From: a virus
IMG/VR virus record: IMGVR_UViG_3300017762_000063
Coordinates: 1 to 26,803 of that record
Direction: 5' to 3' (one strand)
DNA length: 26,803 bases
Positions 1 to 9,700 of the stretch are shown piece by piece. The translations under genes were made by a program, and so were the position numbers. Position 1 is the first letter of the stretch. Every line of letters begins with the position of its first letter. The notes beneath the pieces are model-generated. The model was given only the letters and a program-made list of their open reading frames with translations. It did no database searches and was not told the origin of the DNA.

Positions 1-309
1 CTTTGACGTTGTACAGAGGTACACTGCCCGATCCATATCAGCCTTGCGAATGTAAACTTCAAAGTCTTTACGTTCTTCGTGGTCTACCTTCATTATGCGG
101 TTTGGTGACGAGAATTTTATGTTTCCCCAAGCCTCATCAAATACCTCGACCTGGTAATACTTCACATCACTGCGAGCATTAAACAAAGACATATCGGCGC
201 GAACTACGCCAGCAACGTGAGAGGGTCGAACCTCTGGATATGCAGGTGTCATATCATGTGCCGCCACTGGCGCAGCAAGACAGAGAGATATGCAGGCTCT
301 AATTAGCAA
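1..309 (-). CDS. Exported pilus-chaperone-like protein, 3' end cut by window
   Basis: I read an open frame of 103 codons running off the left edge. It starts with a basic-hydrophobic signal peptide (LLIRACISLCLAAPVAAHD), so the product should be periplasmic or outer-membrane. The mature part contains V-x-A-D-M-S-L-F-N-A-R, then Y-Y-Q-V-E-V-F-D, then P-N-R-I-M-K-V, then F-E-V-Y-I-R and Y-L-C. This alternation of beta strands resembles the first Ig-like domain of chaperone-usher pilus chaperones (FimC/PapD type), although the family's conserved Arg/Lys subunit anchor cannot be placed with certainty. No ATG is available. TTG at 309 overlaps the end of the pilin-like gene upstream, and another TTG lies 15 bases further up; neither has a good ribosome binding site, which suggests coupling to the upstream gene. 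The frame and signal peptide are clear. The chaperone assignment is an inference from strand pattern and neighbours. Confidence 0.5.
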   Translation of the reverse strand, partial: MLIRACISLCLAAPVAAHDMTPAYPEVRPSHVAGVVRADMSLFNARSDVKYYQVEVFDEAWGNIKFSSPNRIMKVDHEERKDFEVYIRKADMDRAVYLCTTSK

Positions 310-790
310 TGCATTCTGCCACAACAAGGGCGGTGTATGTGCCGCCGGGGAATGGTTTGCTGACGCCATACACCGCTTCGCTTTCAGTCTTAAACCAAGT
401 TGATCCCGCAAGAGTTAGACTGAAGTTTGTGGTGCTGCCCACAACTGTTTTTGCTGATTCGTAAGCTGACATGCCCGAAACAGAGGTTTGGTGGACTGAG
501 GTTGATCCGGTCCAAGTCACAGTGTCATTAAGTGTGGGTGACGAGCTAAACGAGGTAGGGTGTGTAATCTTTGCGGTGTAATAGTCGGCCAACGCCACAT
601 CATAGCGAACAACAGGCACAACGCCTGCACTAGCAGCGGCGGTGGTCAGCTTGTCCGCCGTAGGGTTGCCGTACACACCGACAGTATCCGTTGTGATAAC
701 GCAGCGAGCCTCAACCGTGCCGTTGATGTTCACGTTGTTTGCAAGTGCCGGAATCGCTGCACAAGACAGAACAAGGGTCAAATATTTCAT
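299..790 (-). CDS. Exported pilin-like protein (spore coat U-like subunit)
   Basis: This 163-aa protein has a signal peptide (MKYLTLVLSCAAIPALA) with probable cleavage after ALA. The mature N-terminus, N-V-N-I-N-G-T-V-E-A-R-C-V-I, followed by V-G-V-Y-G, matches the start of spore-coat-U/archaic pilin subunits (strand, Cys, then FG-like turn). A second Cys lies near the C-terminus (VVAECIAN) and could pair with the first. The C-terminal G-G-T-Y-T-A-L-V-V is also typical of such subunits. The middle is rich in Ser/Thr, as in beta-sandwich surface proteins. I chose the ATG at 790 because GGAG sits six bases upstream and the preceding gene stops just before it; an ATG at 802 lies inside that gene. 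The chaperone-like gene follows immediately. It could instead be an unrelated Ig-like virion decoration protein. Confidence in the gene is high and in the family moderate. Confidence 0.55.
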   Translation of the reverse strand: MKYLTLVLSCAAIPALANNVNINGTVEARCVITTDTVGVYGNPTADKLTTAAASAGVVPVVRYDVALADYYTAKITHPTSFSSSPTLNDTVTWTGSTSVHQTSVSGMSAYESAKTVVGSTTNFSLTLAGSTWFKTESEAVYGVSKPFPGGTYTALVVAECIAN

Positions 791-791
791 G

Positions 792-1664
792 TCAATCTCC
801 ATACTGGCTTTGCACCATTTGCTCGTGAAGCAATTGTTGGGCCAAGTTGTTCCTCAGTGCCTTTTTGTTATCTGGCAAATCAACCTCTGTCAAAATATTG
901 ACATCCCCATAAGCTCCCCCTCCTATGCTTGTACTATAATACATGGCGATATTGGTTTGCAAATTGATCTGGTTTATTAGATCAGATTGACCTTGAGCTT
1001 GAGTAAGAGTCAGCGCATTAGCCGAGGCCATGAGGCCCATCTCCAGGCGTGTCTCCTCTTCCTCTTCATCCTCTTCCATAATTAGATTACCATCCGCATC
1101 ATATTTAAATTCGGTCTCGTCTTCTAAAATCTCGGCTACCGTTTCATCTTCCAGCGCATCATATACCTCAACCTCAATGACAGGCGGCGCAGGTTTGACG
1201 TAGTTTGGACAGTTTGGGTCTAGCTGCGGGTCGTAGCAGGGATCGAAGCGGTAACTGTAAATCACAACAGGGTCGATCACTTCGCCTGTACCTTCGACAT
1301 CAATTGAGCCATCGCCCCAAAGAGCCGCCGGGACGTAAGGCAAGGAAAACTGTTTGGTGATTGTGTTGCCGGGGACACCTGACCAATCATCCGTCTCGCT
1401 AAACGTGTAGCCCGTGCCATCGGCATTGCCGTTGCGAATATGCACCTTCATTGCATCGTCGGCGTTTTTAACCGTGCTGTATCTGTAGATGAGGCCGTTT
1501 ACGTCTAGGCCATCTTGTGAAGGAAGCACCGACCCCATGGACCAAGACAGACCGCTTGCAGCGGCATTGCCTGTGACCCCAAACACATAGGGATCAGAGT
1601 AGCAGCAGGAGGCCCAGAGCGCCGAGCACAGCGCCGATCCCAATAGTTTTGGAGTCTTGTGCAT
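792..1664 (-). CDS. Exported acidic phage protein of unknown function
   Basis: A 290-aa protein with an N-terminal hydrophobic signal (KLLGSALCSALWASCCYSDP). Beta-rich sequence follows, with W-S-M-G-S-V-L-P near residue 42, D-D-W-S-G-V-P-G near 92 and a Cys-rich turn C-Y-D-P-Q-L-D-P-N-C-P-N-Y. A Pro/Glu-rich section then leads into a very acidic run around residues 197-208 (M-E-E-D-E-E-E-E-E-T-R), and the helical end closes with A-Q-Q-L-L-H-E-Q-M-V. From memory this layout matches a family present in marine cyanophage and other marine phage genomes with no assigned function. The ATG at 1664 has AAGG eight bases upstream. The first 71 bases overlap the end of the previous gene in another frame, so the signal peptide is overprinted on that gene's C-terminal hydrophobic segment. 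Location is probably periplasm or outer membrane. I cannot assign a function. Confidence 0.75.
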   Translation of the reverse strand: MHKTPKLLGSALCSALWASCCYSDPYVFGVTGNAAASGLSWSMGSVLPSQDGLDVNGLIYRYSTVKNADDAMKVHIRNGNADGTGYTFSETDDWSGVPGNTITKQFSLPYVPAALWGDGSIDVEGTGEVIDPVVIYSYRFDPCYDPQLDPNCPNYVKPAPPVIEVEVYDALEDETVAEILEDETEFKYDADGNLIMEEDEEEEETRLEMGLMASANALTLTQAQGQSDLINQINLQTNIAMYYSTSIGGGAYGDVNILTEVDLPDNKKALRNNLAQQLLHEQMVQSQYGD

Positions 1665-2145
1665 CAATCAAACCTTCTATAGCCCCACGTTGCATTTCTG
1701 GCGCAGGGTCTTTGTTGGCTTCCATCTCCCAAGCGGTTTTAGCCGCATCGCCAATCAATCCATCCTTAGGGCATGGGGTTCCAGCGTTCATCATCGCGTC
1801 AAACACACGCTCATCTTGGCACATCACAGACACCGCCGCCACTTTCATGCCCATGTCGTACATGGTTTTGGCGTTCTTCAGTTTTTCGCAGTTCATGTCG
1901 CGCACAGTGCGGCCAGCAGAAATGCCTAGTATCTGTGTCTGGACTGCGCCAGCCACGCCAACAGTGCAAAGATCGCTGTTGCTCGCGCTAATTTGTGGGG
2001 AGATAGCAGAGGGCGGCGGCGAATTGACCGTTGTGTCCATTGTACCGCTGCTTGTGACCGTACTTTCGCTCTTCACTACGTCACTGTCTTGCGCAGTCGC
2101 GGCACTTCCTGCAAGCGCAATGGCTATAGCTAAAAGAAACCTCAT
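1594..2145 (-). CDS. Exported, C-terminally anchored phage protein of unknown function
   Basis: This 183-aa protein has a classic signal peptide (MRFLLAIAIALAGSAATAQ). A Ser/Thr/Pro-rich stretch follows (about residues 20-55), then a conserved-looking globular part with A-G-A-V-Q-T-Q-I-L-G-I, M-N-C-E-K-L-K, M-Y-D-M-G-M-K-V-A-A-V-S-V-M-C-Q-D and G-T-P-C-P-K-D-G. It has four Cys in the mature part. The last 16 residues are fully hydrophobic and end in G-L-L-L-L-L with no basic tail. From memory, proteins with this core occur in many marine phages without known function. The ATG overlaps the holin-like gene's stop (ATGA). With an exported N-terminus and a hydrophobic C-terminus just after a holin-like gene, a role at the envelope (lysis accessory, receptor or exclusion) is possible, but nothing in the sequence decides it. 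Confidence 0.75.
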   Translation of the reverse strand: MRFLLAIAIALAGSAATAQDSDVVKSESTVTSSGTMDTTVNSPPPSAISPQISASNSDLCTVGVAGAVQTQILGISAGRTVRDMNCEKLKNAKTMYDMGMKVAAVSVMCQDERVFDAMMNAGTPCPKDGLIGDAAKTAWEMEANKDPAPEMQRGAIEGLIDAQDSKTIGIGAVLGALGLLLLL

Positions 2146-2342
2146 CCCATCTTCGTCAGGACTGCAAGCAAGAGTGCAATGATAGAACCTGTGGTTGCAA
2201 TCATGATACCTTCCATGCGCTTAACGCGGCTGAACAGATCTTTGAATTGGATCTTAACTTCTGTCTTGATAGCGATAATTTCTTTCTCAAGGCTATCAAT
2301 GCGATCATGCGCAGATGCTATTGTACGTTTGTTCATTACCAT
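2142..2342 (-). CDS. Holin-like protein, coiled coil plus one membrane segment
   Basis: A 66-aa protein with the layout of XhlA/haemolysin-type phage holins. The N-terminal heptad-like amphipathic helix covers about residues 10-42 (A-H-D-R-I-D-S-L-E-K-E-I-I-A-I-K), with a basic patch S-R-V-K-R-M-E-G. One C-terminal transmembrane segment follows (M-I-A-T-T-G-S-I-I-A-L-L-L-A-V-L), ending in T-K-M-G. Proteins of this form accumulate in the inner membrane and help release endolysin. Two ATGs are available, two codons apart; GAG lies seven bases before the second (2336). It sits between tail-associated genes and the exported cassette, a normal place for a holin in phages of this type. No endolysin is seen beside it, so the lysis role rests on architecture alone. 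Confidence 0.6.
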   Translation of the reverse strand: MVMNKRTIASAHDRIDSLEKEIIAIKTEVKIQFKDLFSRVKRMEGIMIATTGSIIALLLAVLTKMG

Positions 2343-2345
2343 TCT

Positions 2346-2615
2346 CTACTCTGGCTTCGTGGGCCATGTGATGTCAATTGGAAAGCCAGACTGATCTGTG
2401 ATGTCACGGAGAGCCTGACGATATGCTGTCTGCTCTGCGGTCATCGTGCGGTCGGATGTAGCCCACCAGTCTGTTTCTGATATAAGTTGGTCTCTCATTC
2501 TTCGCATACTTTGGGCGTCAAAGCTGCTATCAGAAGTTTTAGCAAGAAACTCTTGTGTTTCGTCTTCTGTAAGACGAATTTTCTCTCCATCTACTATTTT
2601 ATAGTAAGTCATCAT
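2346..2615 (-). CDS. Tail-assembly-chaperone-like protein (Phage_tail_APC type)
   Basis: The 89-aa product ends with the pattern R-D-Q-L-I-S-E-T-D-W-W-A-T-S-D-R-T, then Y-R-Q-A-L-R-D-I-T and G-F-P-I-D-I-T-W-P-T-K-P. This is the hallmark of the small tail-fibre-associated family annotated as phage tail assembly chaperone (PF16778, named from memory): RD..L..tDW..lsD, YRqaLRDi, gfP..i.WP..P. The N-terminal third (Y-Y-K-I-V-D-G-E-K-I-R-L-T-E-D-E) looks like the usual small beta module. AAGGA lies before a pair of ATGs; either could be used. The position just after the fibre genes fits a helper of fibre or host-recognition protein assembly. The exact biochemical role of this family in podoviruses is unproven. 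Confidence 0.65.
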   Translation of the reverse strand: MMTYYKIVDGEKIRLTEDETQEFLAKTSDSSFDAQSMRRMRDQLISETDWWATSDRTMTAEQTAYRQALRDITDQSGFPIDITWPTKPE

Positions 2616-2624
2616 AAGTTCCTT

Positions 2625-3236
2625 TTATCCAATGTCATTTGCGCCATACAAAATAAAGTCTCCTTGGTTAATGGTGTTAGTGCTATTTCCATCAAACTTT
2701 ATTTTGTTAACCCTGTTAGTAAAAGACTCTAACCAATAGTGCGAAAACTCCTCACTGTTGGTCTGAATCTGGCTTATCGAAAGTGCGTTGTTCCAAGGCA
2801 CCTTCCAAGAGTTAAAGGCTGTCATTATAAAAGGCCCATTGCTGTCGTTCATTTTGAGATGAAAGTCAAAATAAGCATGAAGCTTACTGGTCGATTGATT
2901 GGTTGCGTCAGGCTTAAAGCTTTCGTACCACGTTATAGAACTTCTTGATGAACCATCTTGTCGATAATACTGTGTAGAATAAGAAGAGCCATTGTTTGTG
3001 GAAAGATAACACTGCCCAGTAACATAAGTGCCAGTAGCCCTATTAAAAAAGGGGTCTTTAACTATTAACCTATATACATCGTATCCAGTTGGCAAAGAAA
3101 TTTCAACCTGTGAAACCGAACTTGTTACGTTTGTTTCTGATATAAACTTCCAAAAACCACCTCCAGCACCACTCGCAATGTTTACAAGGTTTCTGCTGTC
3201 ATCAATAACGGTTGTGCCGTTCACCTTAATCGCCAT
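2625..3236 (-). CDS. Probable tail-fibre-associated / receptor-binding protein
   Basis: A 203-aa protein beginning M-A-I-K-V-N-G-T-T-V-I-D-D-S-R-N-L-V-N-I. That is a short trimerising or virion-attachment motif I know from many marine phage tail-fibre and tail-adhesin proteins. The remainder is beta-rich and Ser/Asn/Tyr-rich, with Trp and aromatic clusters (S-I-T-W-Y-E-S-F, S-W-K-V-P-W-N-N, S-H-Y-W-L-E-S-F) and a C-terminal G-D-F-I-L-Y-G-A typical of jelly-roll carbohydrate-binding ends. There is no signal peptide, so export would be as part of the virion. A GGAAGG motif lies about ten bases before the ATG. Its place between fibre genes and the assembly-chaperone-like gene supports a host-recognition role. 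No enzymatic motif is visible. Confidence 0.6.
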   Translation of the reverse strand: MAIKVNGTTVIDDSRNLVNIASGAGGGFWKFISETNVTSSVSQVEISLPTGYDVYRLIVKDPFFNRATGTYVTGQCYLSTNNGSSYSTQYYRQDGSSRSSITWYESFKPDATNQSTSKLHAYFDFHLKMNDSNGPFIMTAFNSWKVPWNNALSISQIQTNSEEFSHYWLESFTNRVNKIKFDGNSTNTINQGDFILYGANDIG

Positions 3237-3266
3237 CTTCGTGTCCTTCCACTATTAGCTTTTAGA

Positions 3267-3569
3267 TTACCAAGGAACCCCGGCAGTCGTAGTCGGGTTC
3301 AACTCAGCGTTGATCTTGTCTGCAATCGCCTGTTCGATGTCAGCGCGAACCACAGTGTTCCAGACCCAAGCAAGCACAGCGTCTTGCGTTAAGTCAGCAA
3401 ATGCAATGAAGTCAGAGGCAGATGCGTCAGGTGTCCATGAGGTTGTCCCGTATGAGGAAGCTGTGGCCTCTCCATCAACGCCCTCACAGCGCCAGTGCGA
3501 TACTGTCACGCCACCATCTGCGGTGTTGCGCTCAAGTTCTGCGATAGTCCATGTGTAAGTTACAGCCAT
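3267..3569 (-). CDS. Conserved small phage protein next to the tail fibre
   Basis: The 100-aa product starts A-V-T-Y-T-W-T-I-A-E-L-E-R-N and carries G-G-V-T-V-S-H-W-R-C-E-G-V-D-G. A long amphipathic helix follows (W-V-W-N-T-V-V-R-A-D-I-E-Q-A-I-A-D-K-I-N-A-E-L), and the protein ends in P-T-T-T-A-G-V-P-W. The Y-T-W-x-I start and P-W end match a family of about 100 aa found beside tail fibres in marine phages (DUF7936 by my recollection). AGGAG is placed seven bases before the ATG, and the gene begins two bases after the fibre gene ends. A structural or chaperone role for the fibre is plausible from position, but the function is unknown. Confidence 0.6.
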   Translation of the reverse strand: MAVTYTWTIAELERNTADGGVTVSHWRCEGVDGEATASSYGTTSWTPDASASDFIAFADLTQDAVLAWVWNTVVRADIEQAIADKINAELNPTTTAGVPW

Positions 3570-3571
3570 GT

Positions 3572-6500
3572 TTAGTCTCCTAGTTTAGCTTCTAATGCTT
3601 CAATGCGAAGCTGTTGTTCTTTGATTGCTTCGATAAGCACGGCCACCATGTTGCCATACTTGACCGACTTGATGCCTTCGTCATTGGTGCTGACTACATC
3701 TGGCAGTACAGCTTCTACTTCCTGAGCAATGACACCTATCTCTGATCCACCGTTCTCCAGCCAATCGAATGAGACACCACGCAGGGACGTAACGGCGTCC
3801 AGAGAGCCGCTGAGTGTCTCTACGTTGGTCTTGAGTGTGGCGTCTGAAGTGGTGTTGAAGTTGGCTGCGTTAGCTGTGCCAGACAGGTAGAGGTCTTTGA
3901 AGCGGTATGAGCCTGTTCCTAGATCAACTGCACTGTCAGAGTTTGCGCCACCACGTCTTGGCGTAATGCTTCCGCCAAAACTTAAACCTGACCTGTTTGA
4001 TGATGTTGCTTCAACGATAAGGTTAGTAGATGCGTTCCCAATACTTCCCACAACACTATCTTGCGCTGCGAACGAAACTATTTCTCCGTCATTTGTTCTG
4101 CGATTTAAAGAAAGCGGAGTATTGCCATCACGAACAAAGCTGCCTAGCCCACCAAAAATATTGCCACCAGCCGTGGTTGAAGATGTACTCGTCTTACCCA
4201 CCAGTAAGTTACCGCCAGACTGTGAATTTAATAGTAAAGTTGAGCCATCTAATTTTAATTCAGTAAAAGCATTAGCCGCATCATTTACCGCTTGAATGGC
4301 TGCATGTGTTTCTTGCTGTATACGGATATTATCATCAGTCGCACATCTTATATATAAAGGTGAACTGTTAGGGTTGCTTGTGGTTCTTATTGAAAGTCCC
4401 TCCGCACTACTGTCCCAGAAAAACTTTGGCGTGGTGCCTGTGTCCTCGTAGAAGCTGATGTCGCCGTTGGATAAGACAGTAAGTCTATCTGTGTTATTAC
4501 TACGAATGTCTAAGTCGTGAGCAGTTGTTGTTCCAATAACACCTGTATTATTCCCAGATTTAAGTACAGTGGTTGTTGTGTTTGTAGTGTCTGTTACTTC
4601 AATTGTAGGGGCATCAGCATTTGATAGTGTCAGCCCATCACTGGTCAAAGTCCCATTGATGTCACACCCGCTACTGGTGGTGGCGAGTTTGGGGCTATTG
4701 CTATAAAATAGTGTCGCTACACCTGCAACAGACTCAAATGAAGTTGCATTACCTGCTGCGTTTAAAACATAGAAATTATCCGCTTGGAGCTTTAAGTTTC
4801 CAGTCCCGCTTTCGGTTATACGACTATTATCCCCATCATGGTAAATCTGCAAATCAGACCCAGCACCAAAGATGGCTTTGTCGTTGTCGCCGAAGGACAG
4901 ATTACCCGTCATGCTATCGCCAGTGACCGCAACAAAGTCTGTGGCTGCGGCGGTGGCTGCTGTGCCAAGTCCGAGGTTTGTGCGGCCAGCAGAAGCAGAG
5001 GCCAAATCAGACAGGTTGTTAGCAACAAGCAAAGCGCCTGAGAGAGAAGCGTAAGCAGCAACCCACTGGCTTCCCTCATAGACCTTCATTACATCGTCTG
5101 TGGTATTAAAGTAAAGCGCCCCGGAAACCAATGCGTTACCGTCATTATCTACTGTAGGATCGGACGCCTTGGCACCCAAATACCTGTCATCAAAGTTATC
5201 CAGAGCAGCAAGCGCCGCATCCTTTGCGGCTTCAGATGCCGTGGCAGAGTTTGCGCTTGCAGTTGCGGATGTTGCCGCCTCTCCAGCTTTTGTCGTTGCA
5301 ACGCCAGCCTGCGTGGTGGCTGTGGACGAACTTGTCGATGCGCTAGATGCGCTTGCAGATGCAGAAGATGCACTAGCAGCGGCGTTGGTCTCAGCGGTTT
5401 CGGCATTAGTCTCTGCGGTTTCAGCATTGGTCTCCGCAGTTTCAGCAGCATTCTTACTGGCCAAAGCCGATGCAGCATTTGCGTTTGCATTCTGGATGTC
5501 AGTAATGTTGGTTGCGTTAGTATTGATCGACGTAATGTTTGTTGCGTTTGTATTTACATTGGCAATGTCTGTCGCAACAGTAGTTACATTTGCGCTTACT
5601 CCTGCAACGGTTGTTACGTCACTGCTAACACCCGCAACCGTATTTACGTTCGCCTGGATTCCGCTAACAGTATTAATCTTGGTCTGATCGGATGTTGTTG
5701 GTGTAGTGCGCAGCCAAGAAGTTGTGCCAAGGTCATACACCTTTGTTACATTATTTGTTGTGTCGAAATAAAGCGCGCCGTCAATTAAAGCATCACCATC
5801 GTTATCTAGCGTAGGGTCACTAGATTTAGATCCTAAATAACGATCATCAAAGTTATCGTATACAGTTTCAGCAGAAGACTGCGCGGCTTCCGCTGCTGCT
5901 TGCGCTGTTTCCGCATTAGCCTCGGCGGTTTCGGCGTTGGTCTCTGCGGTTTCTGCTGCTGCCTGCGCAGTTTCTGCCGCTGCCTTAGCGGCTTCCGATG
6001 CCGTCTGTGCAGTTTGAGATGCTGTTTCGCTTGCTGCCGCATTTGTGGCAGATGTCGCTGCCGATGCTGCATCAACAATTAAGTCATATTTTGCGCTGTT
6101 GGCATTGGTCGTGAGTGGCTGTGCGCCACTAGATGTGTGCGCAGTGTTTACAATAAAAATGTTGTTAGTGCTTGTATCTTTTACAATGTCCCGAACAACA
6201 TAGGCAGTTGCCGTGGCCCAATCACCTTGGAAAGTGCCAAGCTCTTGAGTAACAGCCAGATCACCAGAACCGTCAAACGAAAAGACCTTGTTTGCCCTAT
6301 CAGACGCAGAGATTACAAACTCAGAACCAGAAAGCACGTTTGTTCGAGAAGCCTTGATTGCTCGGCCTAGCTGTTCATCGTGTTGTTGCACCATAAACGT
6401 CAATTTGTCTAAGCTGTCTTCTAGTGATCCAGCAGGAAATGGATCGTTAGCAACTAAATCTAGACCTTGCTCTAAGTCCATTTCGCGCAAGATAACAACA

Positions 6501-6730
6501 GTAACGCCAGAGGCCGGCGCCGTGCCAAACACTACGTTGCCGCCGCTTGCAGACCCAACACCTGTAACAGTGTAATTGGTTGTAATTGTTTGCACGGTTT
6601 CTGTGCCGTTGCTAGCTCGAAGAATAACCGTTAGATCATCTTGGTCAAAAATTTTAAAGCTATAGGCAAAAGTTGTAAGGGTTCCGTTACCACTGTAGCT
6701 TACCCGGTTTGTGCTGTTTGATACCGTCAT
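3572..6730 (-). CDS. Tail fibre: T7 gp17-like N-terminus, S74 self-cleaving chaperone
   Basis: This 1052-aa fibre is modular. Residues 1-130 match the T7 gp17 N-terminal virion-attachment domain (Y-S-G-N-G-T-L-T-T-F-A-Y-S-F, then L-R-E-M-D-L-E-Q, then E-D-S-L-D-K-L). Alanine-rich coiled-coil segments follow at about 221-290 and 405-515, built of ETAETNA-type heptads. Each is followed by a copy of a module starting N-F-D-D-R-Y-L-G and containing G-A-L-Y-F. Between them are short N-V-N-T-V-A-G-V repeats. The C-terminal 95 residues form an intramolecular chaperone/endosialidase (peptidase S74) domain, with Ser962-Asp963 and Lys967 in S-D-A-T-L-K-T-N, then I-G-V-I-A-Q-E-V-E and K-Y-G-N-M-V-A-V-L-I-E-A-I-K. 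In this family the Ser/Lys pair releases the chaperone after trimer folding. The ATG overlaps the preceding stop (ATGA). The receptor-binding part probably lies at about 600-950. Confidence 0.92.
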   Translation of the reverse strand: MTVSNSTNRVSYSGNGTLTTFAYSFKIFDQDDLTVILRASNGTETVQTITTNYTVTGVGSASGGNVVFGTAPASGVTVVILREMDLEQGLDLVANDPFPAGSLEDSLDKLTFMVQQHDEQLGRAIKASRTNVLSGSEFVISASDRANKVFSFDGSGDLAVTQELGTFQGDWATATAYVVRDIVKDTSTNNIFIVNTAHTSSGAQPLTTNANSAKYDLIVDAASAATSATNAAASETASQTAQTASEAAKAAAETAQAAAETAETNAETAEANAETAQAAAEAAQSSAETVYDNFDDRYLGSKSSDPTLDNDGDALIDGALYFDTTNNVTKVYDLGTTSWLRTTPTTSDQTKINTVSGIQANVNTVAGVSSDVTTVAGVSANVTTVATDIANVNTNATNITSINTNATNITDIQNANANAASALASKNAAETAETNAETAETNAETAETNAAASASSASASASSASTSSSTATTQAGVATTKAGEAATSATASANSATASEAAKDAALAALDNFDDRYLGAKASDPTVDNDGNALVSGALYFNTTDDVMKVYEGSQWVAAYASLSGALLVANNLSDLASASAGRTNLGLGTAATAAATDFVAVTGDSMTGNLSFGDNDKAIFGAGSDLQIYHDGDNSRITESGTGNLKLQADNFYVLNAAGNATSFESVAGVATLFYSNSPKLATTSSGCDINGTLTSDGLTLSNADAPTIEVTDTTNTTTTVLKSGNNTGVIGTTTAHDLDIRSNNTDRLTVLSNGDISFYEDTGTTPKFFWDSSAEGLSIRTTSNPNSSPLYIRCATDDNIRIQQETHAAIQAVNDAANAFTELKLDGSTLLLNSQSGGNLLVGKTSTSSTTAGGNIFGGLGSFVRDGNTPLSLNRRTNDGEIVSFAAQDSVVGSIGNASTNLIVEATSSNRSGLSFGGSITPRRGGANSDSAVDLGTGSYRFKDLYLSGTANAANFNTTSDATLKTNVETLSGSLDAVTSLRGVSFDWLENGGSEIGVIAQEVEAVLPDVVSTNDEGIKSVKYGNMVAVLIEAIKEQQLRIEALEAKLGD
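5068..5201 (-). repeat. Second copy of the NFDDRYLG fibre module
   Basis: This stretch encodes N-F-D-D-R-Y-L-G-A-K-A-S-D-P-T-V-D-N-D-G followed by G-A-L-Y-F-N-T-T and K-V-Y-E-G-S-Q-W. It repeats the module encoded at about 5722-5857, with conserved residues at most positions but diverged bases. Each copy directly follows an Ala-rich coiled coil, so the unit duplicated is coiled coil plus module. This points to internal duplication or recombination in the fibre shaft. Confidence 0.7.
5382..5444 (-). repeat. Three tandem 21-bp units in the fibre coiled coil
   Basis: The units at 5382-5402, 5403-5423 and 5424-5444 share the form gc(a/g)tt(a/g)gtctc(a/t/c)gc(a/g)gtttc(a/g) and encode three copies of the heptad E-T-A-E-T-N-A on the minus strand. 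Looser copies occur again around 5900-6000 in the first coiled coil. Such in-frame repeats can expand or contract and so lengthen or shorten the fibre shaft. Confidence 0.8.
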
Positions 6731-9700
6731 CGTTTACCACTTTCTTTAAGCTGTTCAACCTGCTGATATGCTTGCCGCATGTTTGCATATTTTGGGTTTT
6801 CAAGCAACGCTAGGAAACCCGCCTCTATAAAATTCTGGTTTATTTTACGAAGCTCGTTTACTTTTACTTTATCTGGAAGGCCTTGATATTCTCTAGATCC
6901 AGTAAAAGCCATGATTGTTTGCCTGAAATCTAATACTCCGAACCCTGGCCTGTTAAGTGTGATTTCATTTTTTGCCAAATTAACTAAATCGGATTGCATG
7001 CCGTAGCTAAGTTTGATCTGGCCCATTTTCTGTGGGTTGGTCAAAGGCCACTTGTTTGTTATGCGCTGCAATCGAATAAGCTCTTTTTCATAGTCTTCCA
7101 GCTCATCGCCGCGCTTTAATCGAAGGCCTGATATGTTGCTAAACAACGCGGCGCCTGGGTTTGCAGCAAAGCTAAATTCGTCCGATCCTTTTGCGTTGCC
7201 TAGTGTATCATAGACAACAGCGTTTAAGTCTTGCTCATCCCGAATGAAGCTGTCCTTGGATTGTAGCGCGCTAATCTCTGTAACGTATTCACGAAACTTT
7301 GTTCCCAAATCGCCCTTGGGTGTGCCGACAATAGCGTAGTTTGGCGTCCCGTCTGCAAGCGGGTATGCAAAAGATTCGTTTCCATCTTCGTCAATGACAG
7401 TCTTTGTTACATCTTCAATTGTATAATATTCAATGTCTTCTCTTGGCTTAACCCTTGTCGGATCAGCAAGGCGAGCAAACATGCGCTGCAATGAGCTGAG
7501 TGGGTTTGGAACGCCAATTGGGCTTGCGCTTTCTGCGTAGCTGCGTGAAATCTTAGCCGCATCATAACCATCCATAAACGCAGTCACATCAGCAATCCCT
7601 TGCAACATGGGCAGTTCTTTATAATAATCTATTGTCGATAAAACCGCTGCCTGCAAATAGTTTTGCTGCAACTCAGGATCGCTTGTCATGTTTGCTCTTT
7701 GAACAGCGTCAGCCGTAATTGCGAGTAACCCGCCAACAGGCTCAAACCCTTGGAAGCTTACATACATTAAAGGGCCATTTGGAGCGCCGAAAGGATCGTA
7801 AAGCGGCATATCCTCTGGGAACCCTTCGCCCTTTAAGACAAAGCTGTAAGGTTGCCATCCAGGCGGCAAGGCGTCCCGAGACTTTTGATCGCTTGGCATG
7901 CCGCCGGTGATGCGGCCATCCTGTGCGTATTGTGATGTCTGAAACATAACCGCACTTCCAACAATGTATCTGCCAGCGGCAAGCTGATTCGCGCGAGGCC
8001 CGTTCTTGCCACGCAAGTCTGTTATGGATTTGGTAGGCATGCCTGGGACATATTCCATTGTGCGCAGCAACGCATTCGTTGGAGCTGTAACGAATGGCAT
8101 GATAAACCGGCCAAGCAGTGTGCGCTGCAATTTTCCAGCAACCTCACCGAAAGTTCCTAGATCAGATTGCAGCGTATCAAATTTTGCCTTGTAATTTAAA
8201 TCGTCTGCAACAGAGCCTGGATCGAGCAGCATCATGCCGGCCTCATCCAAAGCCTCTTGTTCGGTCATTCCTTTGCGCAATGCGTGTTGATAGCGCCTGT
8301 TTATAGATGTGTAAAACTCACCACGTTGAGAAATGGTTTTCGTAAACTCATCTGCCGAAAGCAACAAACGAAATGGTATCCGCATCCGCTTGCCCAGCTC
8401 ATCAAGAGATCTGCCAAAGAAACTGCTGTCAGACCCAGAAGTAGCTGCGTAATTTTCAATATCTAACTTGCTTGCTCCAGACGGCATTTCAGTCCGCCAA
8501 GCAATTGACGCCGCTTTCATTGCGTCACCCCAGGCATCCGACCATCCTTTCAGCCGGAGAAGAGCGTCTTCCATGTAAACTTGATCTTCACTGATAGGCA
8601 TATACGCTTCGCCAAAAGGCTTGCGCGCTGCTCGGACAACACTGCCATACATGCCGGCCATCACTTCAGTTGGAAGCTGGAACAACATAAAAGAGGTAGT
8701 GCCAATCACGTTTTTCATCTGAGTGGCCGGTGATGACAACAAGCCAGCCAAATAAGCCTCATGCACCATCTGCTTTGTTTTGGCGTACTTGCCAACATTG
8801 GCAACAGCGTTCACGCCCTGCAAACCATTTTCTTTTGCAGATTTTAACAAAGCAAAAGCCAATGCATCTGTGGCCCCAGCGTCTCCGCTTTCCGCAAGCA
8901 GCCTTTTAGCCTCTTCGCCAAAGCGAGTTGCGTCTAGCTCACCGTCAACTCGAATCTGGAATGATTGCAATGCCCGAGCCGCTTCTGTCTGAGCGCCCTT
9001 GAGCTGCAATTGAATACCGCTGTGAATGGCAAGCTGCCTGCGAAACTTTAGTCGAACATCAGCACCAGCGCCTGTTTTGATTAGCGTTGCCAGCTCTTCA
9101 AGCTTCGTCGCACTTCTTACAAGAAGCTCCCGAGATGCAACAAACATCTCTGCCGTCATGCCGCCTTCGCCTATTCTGCGAGTGAGAAGGCTGCGCGTTA
9201 GGCCGATCTCATCAGCAACCAGCCCCGCAGCAACTCTGGCTGTTTCTGTATTAGAAATCTTGCCTCTTGTTATGGTTGCTGTCTCGCCCTTAAAATTTTC
9301 ACCAATTGCCGTAATTATAGCCAAGACATCGTCAGAGGTGTCAATGTAATCAAAATTAAAGTCACCGCCATCTTGCAGGGATTTAACATTGTTCTTTTTC
9401 ACATCAAGGCGACTTAGAACTGCTTGGGCGGCCTCATCAGAAGCAGTGCCTGTTTCGGGCTTAAAGCCTCTAACCTCTGCATTAAGAGCTGCTTGAGCAT
9501 CCTTAGCAACATTAGTTGCTGCCAGCTCTGCCTCGGCAGCGTCATCAGCCAAAGCAGTTTGCGCGTCTTGCAGCACATTTGTTGGCGCCTCTTCACCAAT
9601 CCCAGGCGCTTTGAGGCCTCGCTCTTCAAACTTTGCCACGCCTTCTGGGCTAAGAACTTGGCCGGCTAAGGCGCGCTTGGTTGCGCTTTCCGAAAAAGCA

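Follow-up and report, generated by a model that had tools for sequence, protein, structure and literature searches.

Gene content of the locus

The window, that is, the whole stretch of 26,803 nucleotides analysed here, derives from a lytic, HTVC010P-type, T7-like podovirus of the ocean. Its major capsid protein shares 72% identity with that of HTVC034P, and the first-pass annotation was right in placing the locus in a phage genome. The reverse strand encodes terminase, portal, capsid, tail tubular proteins, internal virion proteins and tail fibre; towards the left end, these backbone genes are followed by a cassette of genes for exported proteins, designated A to F, with A to D lying in the window:

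3572..6730, reverse strand: tail fibre protein; backbone, upstream of the cassette
2346..2615, reverse strand: tail-fibre assembly chaperone (Phage_tail_APC); backbone, upstream of the cassette
2142..2342, reverse strand: small coiled-coil protein with a C-terminal transmembrane (TM) segment, like HTVC010P gp35; final backbone gene ahead of the cassette
1594..2145, reverse strand: gene A, 183 aa, exported; its conserved core contains Cys and it ends in a hydrophobic anchor
792..1664, reverse strand: gene B, 290 aa, exported, with a beta-rich front, an acidic linker and a conserved C-terminus LHEQMVQSQYGD
299..790, reverse strand: gene C, exported pilin-like (SCPU-like) subunit of 163 aa; complete ORF, ATG at 788-790 and TAG at 299-301
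1..324, reverse strand: gene D, PapD-like protein of a single domain (half-chaperone), exported; TTG start at 322-324, truncated by the window edge

Positions 1594-1664 are read in two frames, one giving the C-terminal anchor of A and the other the signal peptide of B; C and D share 26 nt, where D begins within the end of C. Relatives supply what lies beyond the left edge of the window: E and F come next, then G and H/holin-like genes, and the endolysin. In HTVC010P, the genes for tail-fibre assembly and for the coiled-coil protein are followed by the endolysin within about 300 bases, so A-F are an insertion at that point; in the HTVC010P-type backbone, the cassette lies after these two genes and ahead of the holin-like genes and the endolysin. 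Scanning positions 1-4000 of the window for promoters and terminators returned matches at chance level only.

A conserved cassette of exported proteins

Relatives of C in IMG/VR number at least 570. In 191 of 191 IMG/VR loci (about 175 different contigs, several loci sharing a contig), C has B to its left and D to its right, contig edges excepted, and the complete order A-B-C-D-E-F was seen in 149 of these loci. Adjacent genes overlap, as they would in a translationally coupled operon, with median overlaps of 71, 4, 16, 4 and 1 nt for A/B, B/C, C/D, D/E and E/F, respectively; the A/B overlap was present in all 170 loci checked for it. A hydrophobic export signal stands at the start of all or nearly all A, B, D, E and F proteins, and of C too except where its sequence is cut at the start. 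Protein A carries the C-terminal hydrophobic anchor in 33 of 33 cases, and F is predicted to consist of an N-terminal TM segment and a periplasmic coiled coil. A lipobox pattern occurs in 3 of 30 E proteins, the outer-membrane lipobox being rare across the cassette proteins, and none was found in C or D. With a complete C reading frame, signal peptides on both proteins and fixed neighbours throughout, the adjacent exported C-D pair that had first been noticed at this locus is real; the relevant unit is the six-gene cassette and not the pair. As a separate observation, the F proteins (L113, L114, L118, L120, L121, L122 and the marine loci) nearly all carry a conserved Asn-Pro-Leu motif at or close to the C-terminus, despite very divergent length and sequence.

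Three phage backgrounds carry the cassette: T7-like podoviruses, to which the window belongs; siphoviruses whose tip is lambda J-like (L015, L018, L036, L097); and myoviruses, represented by contigs of 114-220 kb that encode a contractile sheath (L027, L032, L076). Scanning of cellular genomes recovered it only in four contigs of two metagenome-assembled genomes (MAGs). One of them, the Rhodobacteraceae bin Water_Bin34 (G001), has five C copies on separate contigs, probably reflecting several phage contigs binned with the bacterium. A cellular origin, or carriage as prophage cargo, was considered and rejected, the four contigs being most likely binned phage contigs.

Further genes were observed near the cassette. 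The product of gene G (e.g., L084 7424-7723, L115 3870-4226) is a small protein that starts with an EF-hand-like, Ca-binding region and has two hydrophobic segments; the gene adjoins the lysis genes in many of these phages, roseophage CRP-207 included. In L061 (8720-9457), L076 (8322-9050) and L079 (8672-9409), a predicted lipase-like protein with a GFRGTEP motif, possibly a membrane-active enzyme, follows the cassette. L018 has, at 8692-9409, overlapping genes for a spanin pair of the Rz/Rz1 type, placed directly after the cassette and before the endolysin.

Predicted folds of C and D

The signal peptide of C is predicted to be cleaved between PALA and NN (signal peptides were called from simple hydrophobicity and cleavage motifs). 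It is followed by a 12-residue, donor-strand-like N-terminal extension and by a beta-sandwich with a closing C-terminal strand. Cys29 and Cys159 (numbered without the initiator Met) are invariant and the C-terminus carries G-G-T-Y, so that the early Cys and the late G-G-T-Y of the first description are both present. The AlphaFold2 monomer model of C, built from a 34-sequence alignment, has a pLDDT of 91.0. Foldseek against the PDB places CfaB and the PapG pilin domain at the top, then CS17, CsuA/B, Caf1 and FimG; the similarity is modest, with a best E of 3.6e-3, a TM-score of 0.42 and nothing below E 1e-3, and it counts against a pilin-like reading that Ig-like sandwiches are common. The segment ahead of Cys29 is conserved and alternates between hydrophobic and polar residues, with hydrophobic positions at -10, -8 and -4 and Gly or another small residue at -6. 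The register agrees with that in 14 SCPU pilins from genomes belonging to the same class as a Rhodobacteraceae MAG; in the monomer model, the segment forms a low-confidence coil. A motif joining the N- and C-terminal strand patterns of SCPU pilins was found in 17 of 34 marine and 6 of 7 Vibrio C proteins, compared to 0 of 1269 other ORFs and 0 of 1020 shuffles, the motif having been defined after the data were seen and its controls being independent. Searches of C against Pfam gave no match at E<=1, with no SCPU (PF05229) match in its own record and an hhalign probability of 0.8%; among PHROG families there was a weak match to phrog_25895 (7.7e-5), of unknown function. For the spore-coat-U-like subunit first proposed, chaperone-usher pilins are among the nearest solved structures, at modest similarity, and the SCPU sequence profile is not matched. 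The median dN/dS is 0.15 for C and 0.31 for D.

The end of D that the window lacks is carried by relatives of 93-95% identity, and complete D extends for ∼105 residues past the signal peptide. Complete relatives measure 122-140 aa and comprise one Ig domain; a second chaperone domain, for which a look past the left edge had been suggested, is absent. Complete D stops at the strand that would correspond to chaperone G1. The AlphaFold2 monomer model (34-sequence alignment) has a pLDDT of 91.1, and Foldseek against the PDB has FaeE, DraB, Caf1M, SafB, FimC and PapD near the top, with E from 1e-4 and TM-scores of 0.55-0.62. Some of the 34 matches below 1e-3 are MSP/VAP domains, which belong to the same PapD-like superfamily. 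Two conserved Cys of D are located on the penultimate and last strands, the strands whose Cys form the F1-G1 disulfide of FGL chaperones. Regarding sequence profiles, D gave no match to PapD_N (PF00345) at E<=1 in 14 records and an hhalign probability of 1-4%, in correct register; its best PHROG family, phrog_25455, is of unknown function and non-significant at 0.087. The earlier reading of D as a partial Ig-like chaperone is therefore upheld by the predicted PapD-like fold (Foldseek E 1e-4) and not by the PapD_N profile. Sequence searches of the PDB with C and D profiles yielded chance matches only, and predicted viral structures, when searched, nothing below 1e-3. Because profile-profile comparison joins neither C to SCPU nor D to PapD_N, we claim kinship of fold and of the likely way of working, and not of family.

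The same evidence bears on an alternative in which C and D would be structural components of the virion or associated with its tail, merely resembling pilin and chaperone folds. Both genes sit in a late structural operon, and Vibrio phages VhaS-tm and K251 have them beside head-tail genes. Assembly of tailed virions is a cytoplasmic process. Since C and D have clear signal peptides and match no structural PHROG, we consider this explanation highly improbable.

Comparison with chaperone-usher and other fibre pathways

Similarity of the C-D pair to the chaperone-usher systems of the archaic/SCPU and FGL types (CsuA/B-CsuC, Caf1-Caf1M, Saf, Dra) consists in the adjacency of an exported pilin-like and an exported PapD-like protein, in fold, modestly so for C, and, relative to SCPU pilins, in the N-terminal strand motif of C in the same register. 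Unlike these pathways, the pair has no usher, a single-domain chaperone and no sequence-family match; it is placed in a phage late operon among four unrelated exported proteins, and C differs from chaperone-usher pilins in having its Cys at the start and the very end. An usher (PF00577) above cut-off was found in 0 of 28 records, seven Vibrio phage records included, with the E. coli control positive, and the CsgG pore (PF03783) likewise in 0 of 28, the virus records searched being possibly incomplete. The usher suspected just beyond the left edge is rejected: in relatives, E, F, holin-like genes and the endolysin come next. With neither usher nor CsgG in the 28 records, the phage genes do not build a classical pilus. 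Among 115 genomes sampled from the related class, just 12 had a PapD_N-positive chaperone, so the host cannot be counted on to supply an usher.

These results weigh upon the possibility of a true surface fibre, in which C would polymerise by donor-strand exchange and leave through an unrecognised or host pore, to coat or aggregate infected cells. The donor-strand-like N-terminal extension and the pilin-like fold of C are as a fibre would have them, and another fibre pathway, curli, is already known in pelagiphages (PMC9599517). Given, however, that usher and CsgG are lacking from the records, that D has no second chaperone domain and that the host cannot be relied on for an usher, fibre formation appears improbable. 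Curli/type VIII secretion genes (CsgG, CsgF) are carried by pelagiphages, and were proposed to serve in lysis timing or aggregation (PMC9599517, PMC9004378). They resemble C-D-E in being carried by marine phages and in being related to a fibre pathway of bacteria; they differ in that the proteins are unrelated and C-D-E has no outer-membrane pore. A link of the cassette to phage curli was rejected, no CsgG being found in 28 records. Pelagiphage curli secretion, itself unrelated in sequence, is the nearest published parallel (PMC9599517, PMC9004378). In the open-access literature, to which the search was confined, no report of a phage SCPU protein, usher or PapD-like/fimbrial chaperone was found.

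Two modules, C-D-E and A-B-F

The C-D-E trio occurs by itself, without A, B and F, in Vibrio phages, each gene in about 180 Vibrio phage records and annotated as 'hypothetical protein' wherever listed. Marine C, D and E profiles match gp077, gp078 and gp079 of phage pVp-1 in order (1.6e-5, 3.8e-7, 1.3e-14), and hhalign of marine against Vibrio C, D and E gives 1.8e-8, 2.6e-7 and 2.2e-13. The pVp-1 proteins correspond to PHROG families 25895, 25455 and 37374, all of 'unknown function', which hence represent a homologous trio in the same order, differing from the cassette in standing without A, B and F. In each of seven Vibrio phages examined, a large protein of about 770-860 aa precedes the trio; in the three tested it corresponds to family phrog_10818 and is possibly a tail protein, and in most of the seven a small lipoprotein follows the trio. 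The ∼800-aa protein upstream of Vibrio C was considered as an usher and rejected, for it has no signal peptide, belongs to phrog_10818 and lacks PF00577. In pVp-1 (L178 8715-13821), the adjacent large proteins gp075 and gp076 match two parts of the 1496-aa phrog_10818, as if split.

Conversely, A and F are found in pelagiphages without C-D-E (7e-53 and 1.6e-17). In these phages, as well as in T7-like S28C10, a large exported protein occupies the place of B; pelagiphage B gave no significant profile match to B of the window. The pelagiphage protein in this place (L113 5433-6731, L121 5308-6693) has a weak CBM_4_9 match at its start and then a long acidic linker. In the window type, the two modules are merged as A-B-[C-D-E]-F.

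The A-B-F block of S28C10 lies between the tail fibre and terminase genes. This position, together with the N-terminal TM segment and periplasmic coiled coil of F, lends itself to the idea of a multi-component spanin replacement, having F as the i-spanin-like component, E or A as its partner and C-D as a bridge. F is like the Rz/Rz1 spanins in its inner-membrane TM segment and coiled coil, and in many phages the cassette shares with them the neighbourhood of the lysis module. It is unlike them in that the F representatives scanned match no spanin PHROG and the outer-membrane lipobox is rare. True pairs moreover coexist with the cassette: Rz/Rz1 follow it in L018 (phrog_739 at 3.8e-15, phrog_812 at 3.9e-12), and pVp-1 has an Rz/Rz1 pair besides C-D-E. 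Because real Rz/Rz1 are present, the cassette is not needed for outer-membrane fusion in L018 and pVp-1. Spanin substitution as a general role is therefore rejected, and we attach little probability to the replacement idea in any form.

Proposed function

From folds, export and conserved adjacency, the option that survives among those raised in the first-pass annotation is that of a domesticated beta-sandwich pair with another role; its interpretation as a whole is partly supported. In the mechanism that we propose, C would be exported by Sec and adopt a pilin-like beta-sandwich fold, and D, equivalent to the N-terminal half of a PapD-type chaperone, would complement C with its last strand, that is, by donor-strand complementation. 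As D has no second domain and there is no usher to receive C, D should stay bound to C, and the two may form a stable, permanently bound periplasmic heterodimer. The C-D-E module is envisaged as inserted into A-B-F, another exported module in which F provides a coiled coil at the inner membrane. Jointly, A to F could constitute an envelope-spanning complex that the phage makes late, at the time of its tail and lysis genes, and that would most likely act on the envelope at progeny release, accessory to holin, endolysin and spanin. That C-D is a repurposed chaperone-pilin pair in a late envelope-spanning complex that serves release or takeover of the envelope is put forward tentatively, its probability falling somewhat short of even. 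The link of the cassette to lysis genes is partial: neither large myovirus contigs nor two of the Vibrio siphophages have cassette or trio next to such genes.

Alternatively, the exported complex could alter the envelope against further adsorption or injection, providing generic superinfection exclusion or protecting progeny from debris. T5 Llp and T4 Spackle are proteins stopping further phage adsorption or injection. Llp of T5 and Rtp45 are superinfection-exclusion lipoproteins (PMC9586334, PMC12685063). They are like the cassette proteins in being exported from genes that adjoin receptor-binding or tail genes; the gene for T5 Llp lies adjacent to, and downstream of, that for its receptor-binding protein (PMC9586334). 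Every cassette product is exported, the cassette comes just downstream of the tail-fibre genes in the window and of the large phrog_10818 protein in Vibrio phages, and the small lipoprotein after the Vibrio trio also accords with exclusion. Yet Llp and Rtp45 are each one small lipoprotein, matched to a particular receptor, whereas the cassette, far bigger than known exclusion lipoproteins, comprises six proteins without a consistent lipobox. As phages with unrelated tail tips and of different morphotypes conserve it, it cannot be adapted to a single receptor, which makes the receptor-specific form of exclusion unlikely. The late-gene position, in addition, does not suggest early expression. 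We regard generic exclusion as rather unlikely, and the accessory role in release, tentative as it is, is favoured over it. After pilus, receptor-specific exclusion and spanin substitute are set aside, a late, general, envelope-located function is what remains.

Our study may have importance in suggesting, with a probability that we place close to an even chance, that tailed marine phages of three morphotypes have in common a virus-specific, multi-protein A-F envelope machine composed of two exchangeable modules, one of which would depend on a minimal chaperone-pilin pair, its half-chaperone permanently completing the pilin fold and not handing it over to an usher. Since the C-D-E trio occurs in cultivable Vibrio phages, the question is directly testable. 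If the proposal is right, a gene block that ranks among the commonest without annotation in ocean phages, represented by at least 570 sequences and present in HTVC010P-type phages of SAR11, would be an envelope machine related in fold to pili. Chaperone-usher folds would then be able to work without an usher, and a late function would be identified that every tail type needs in marine Gram-negative hosts.
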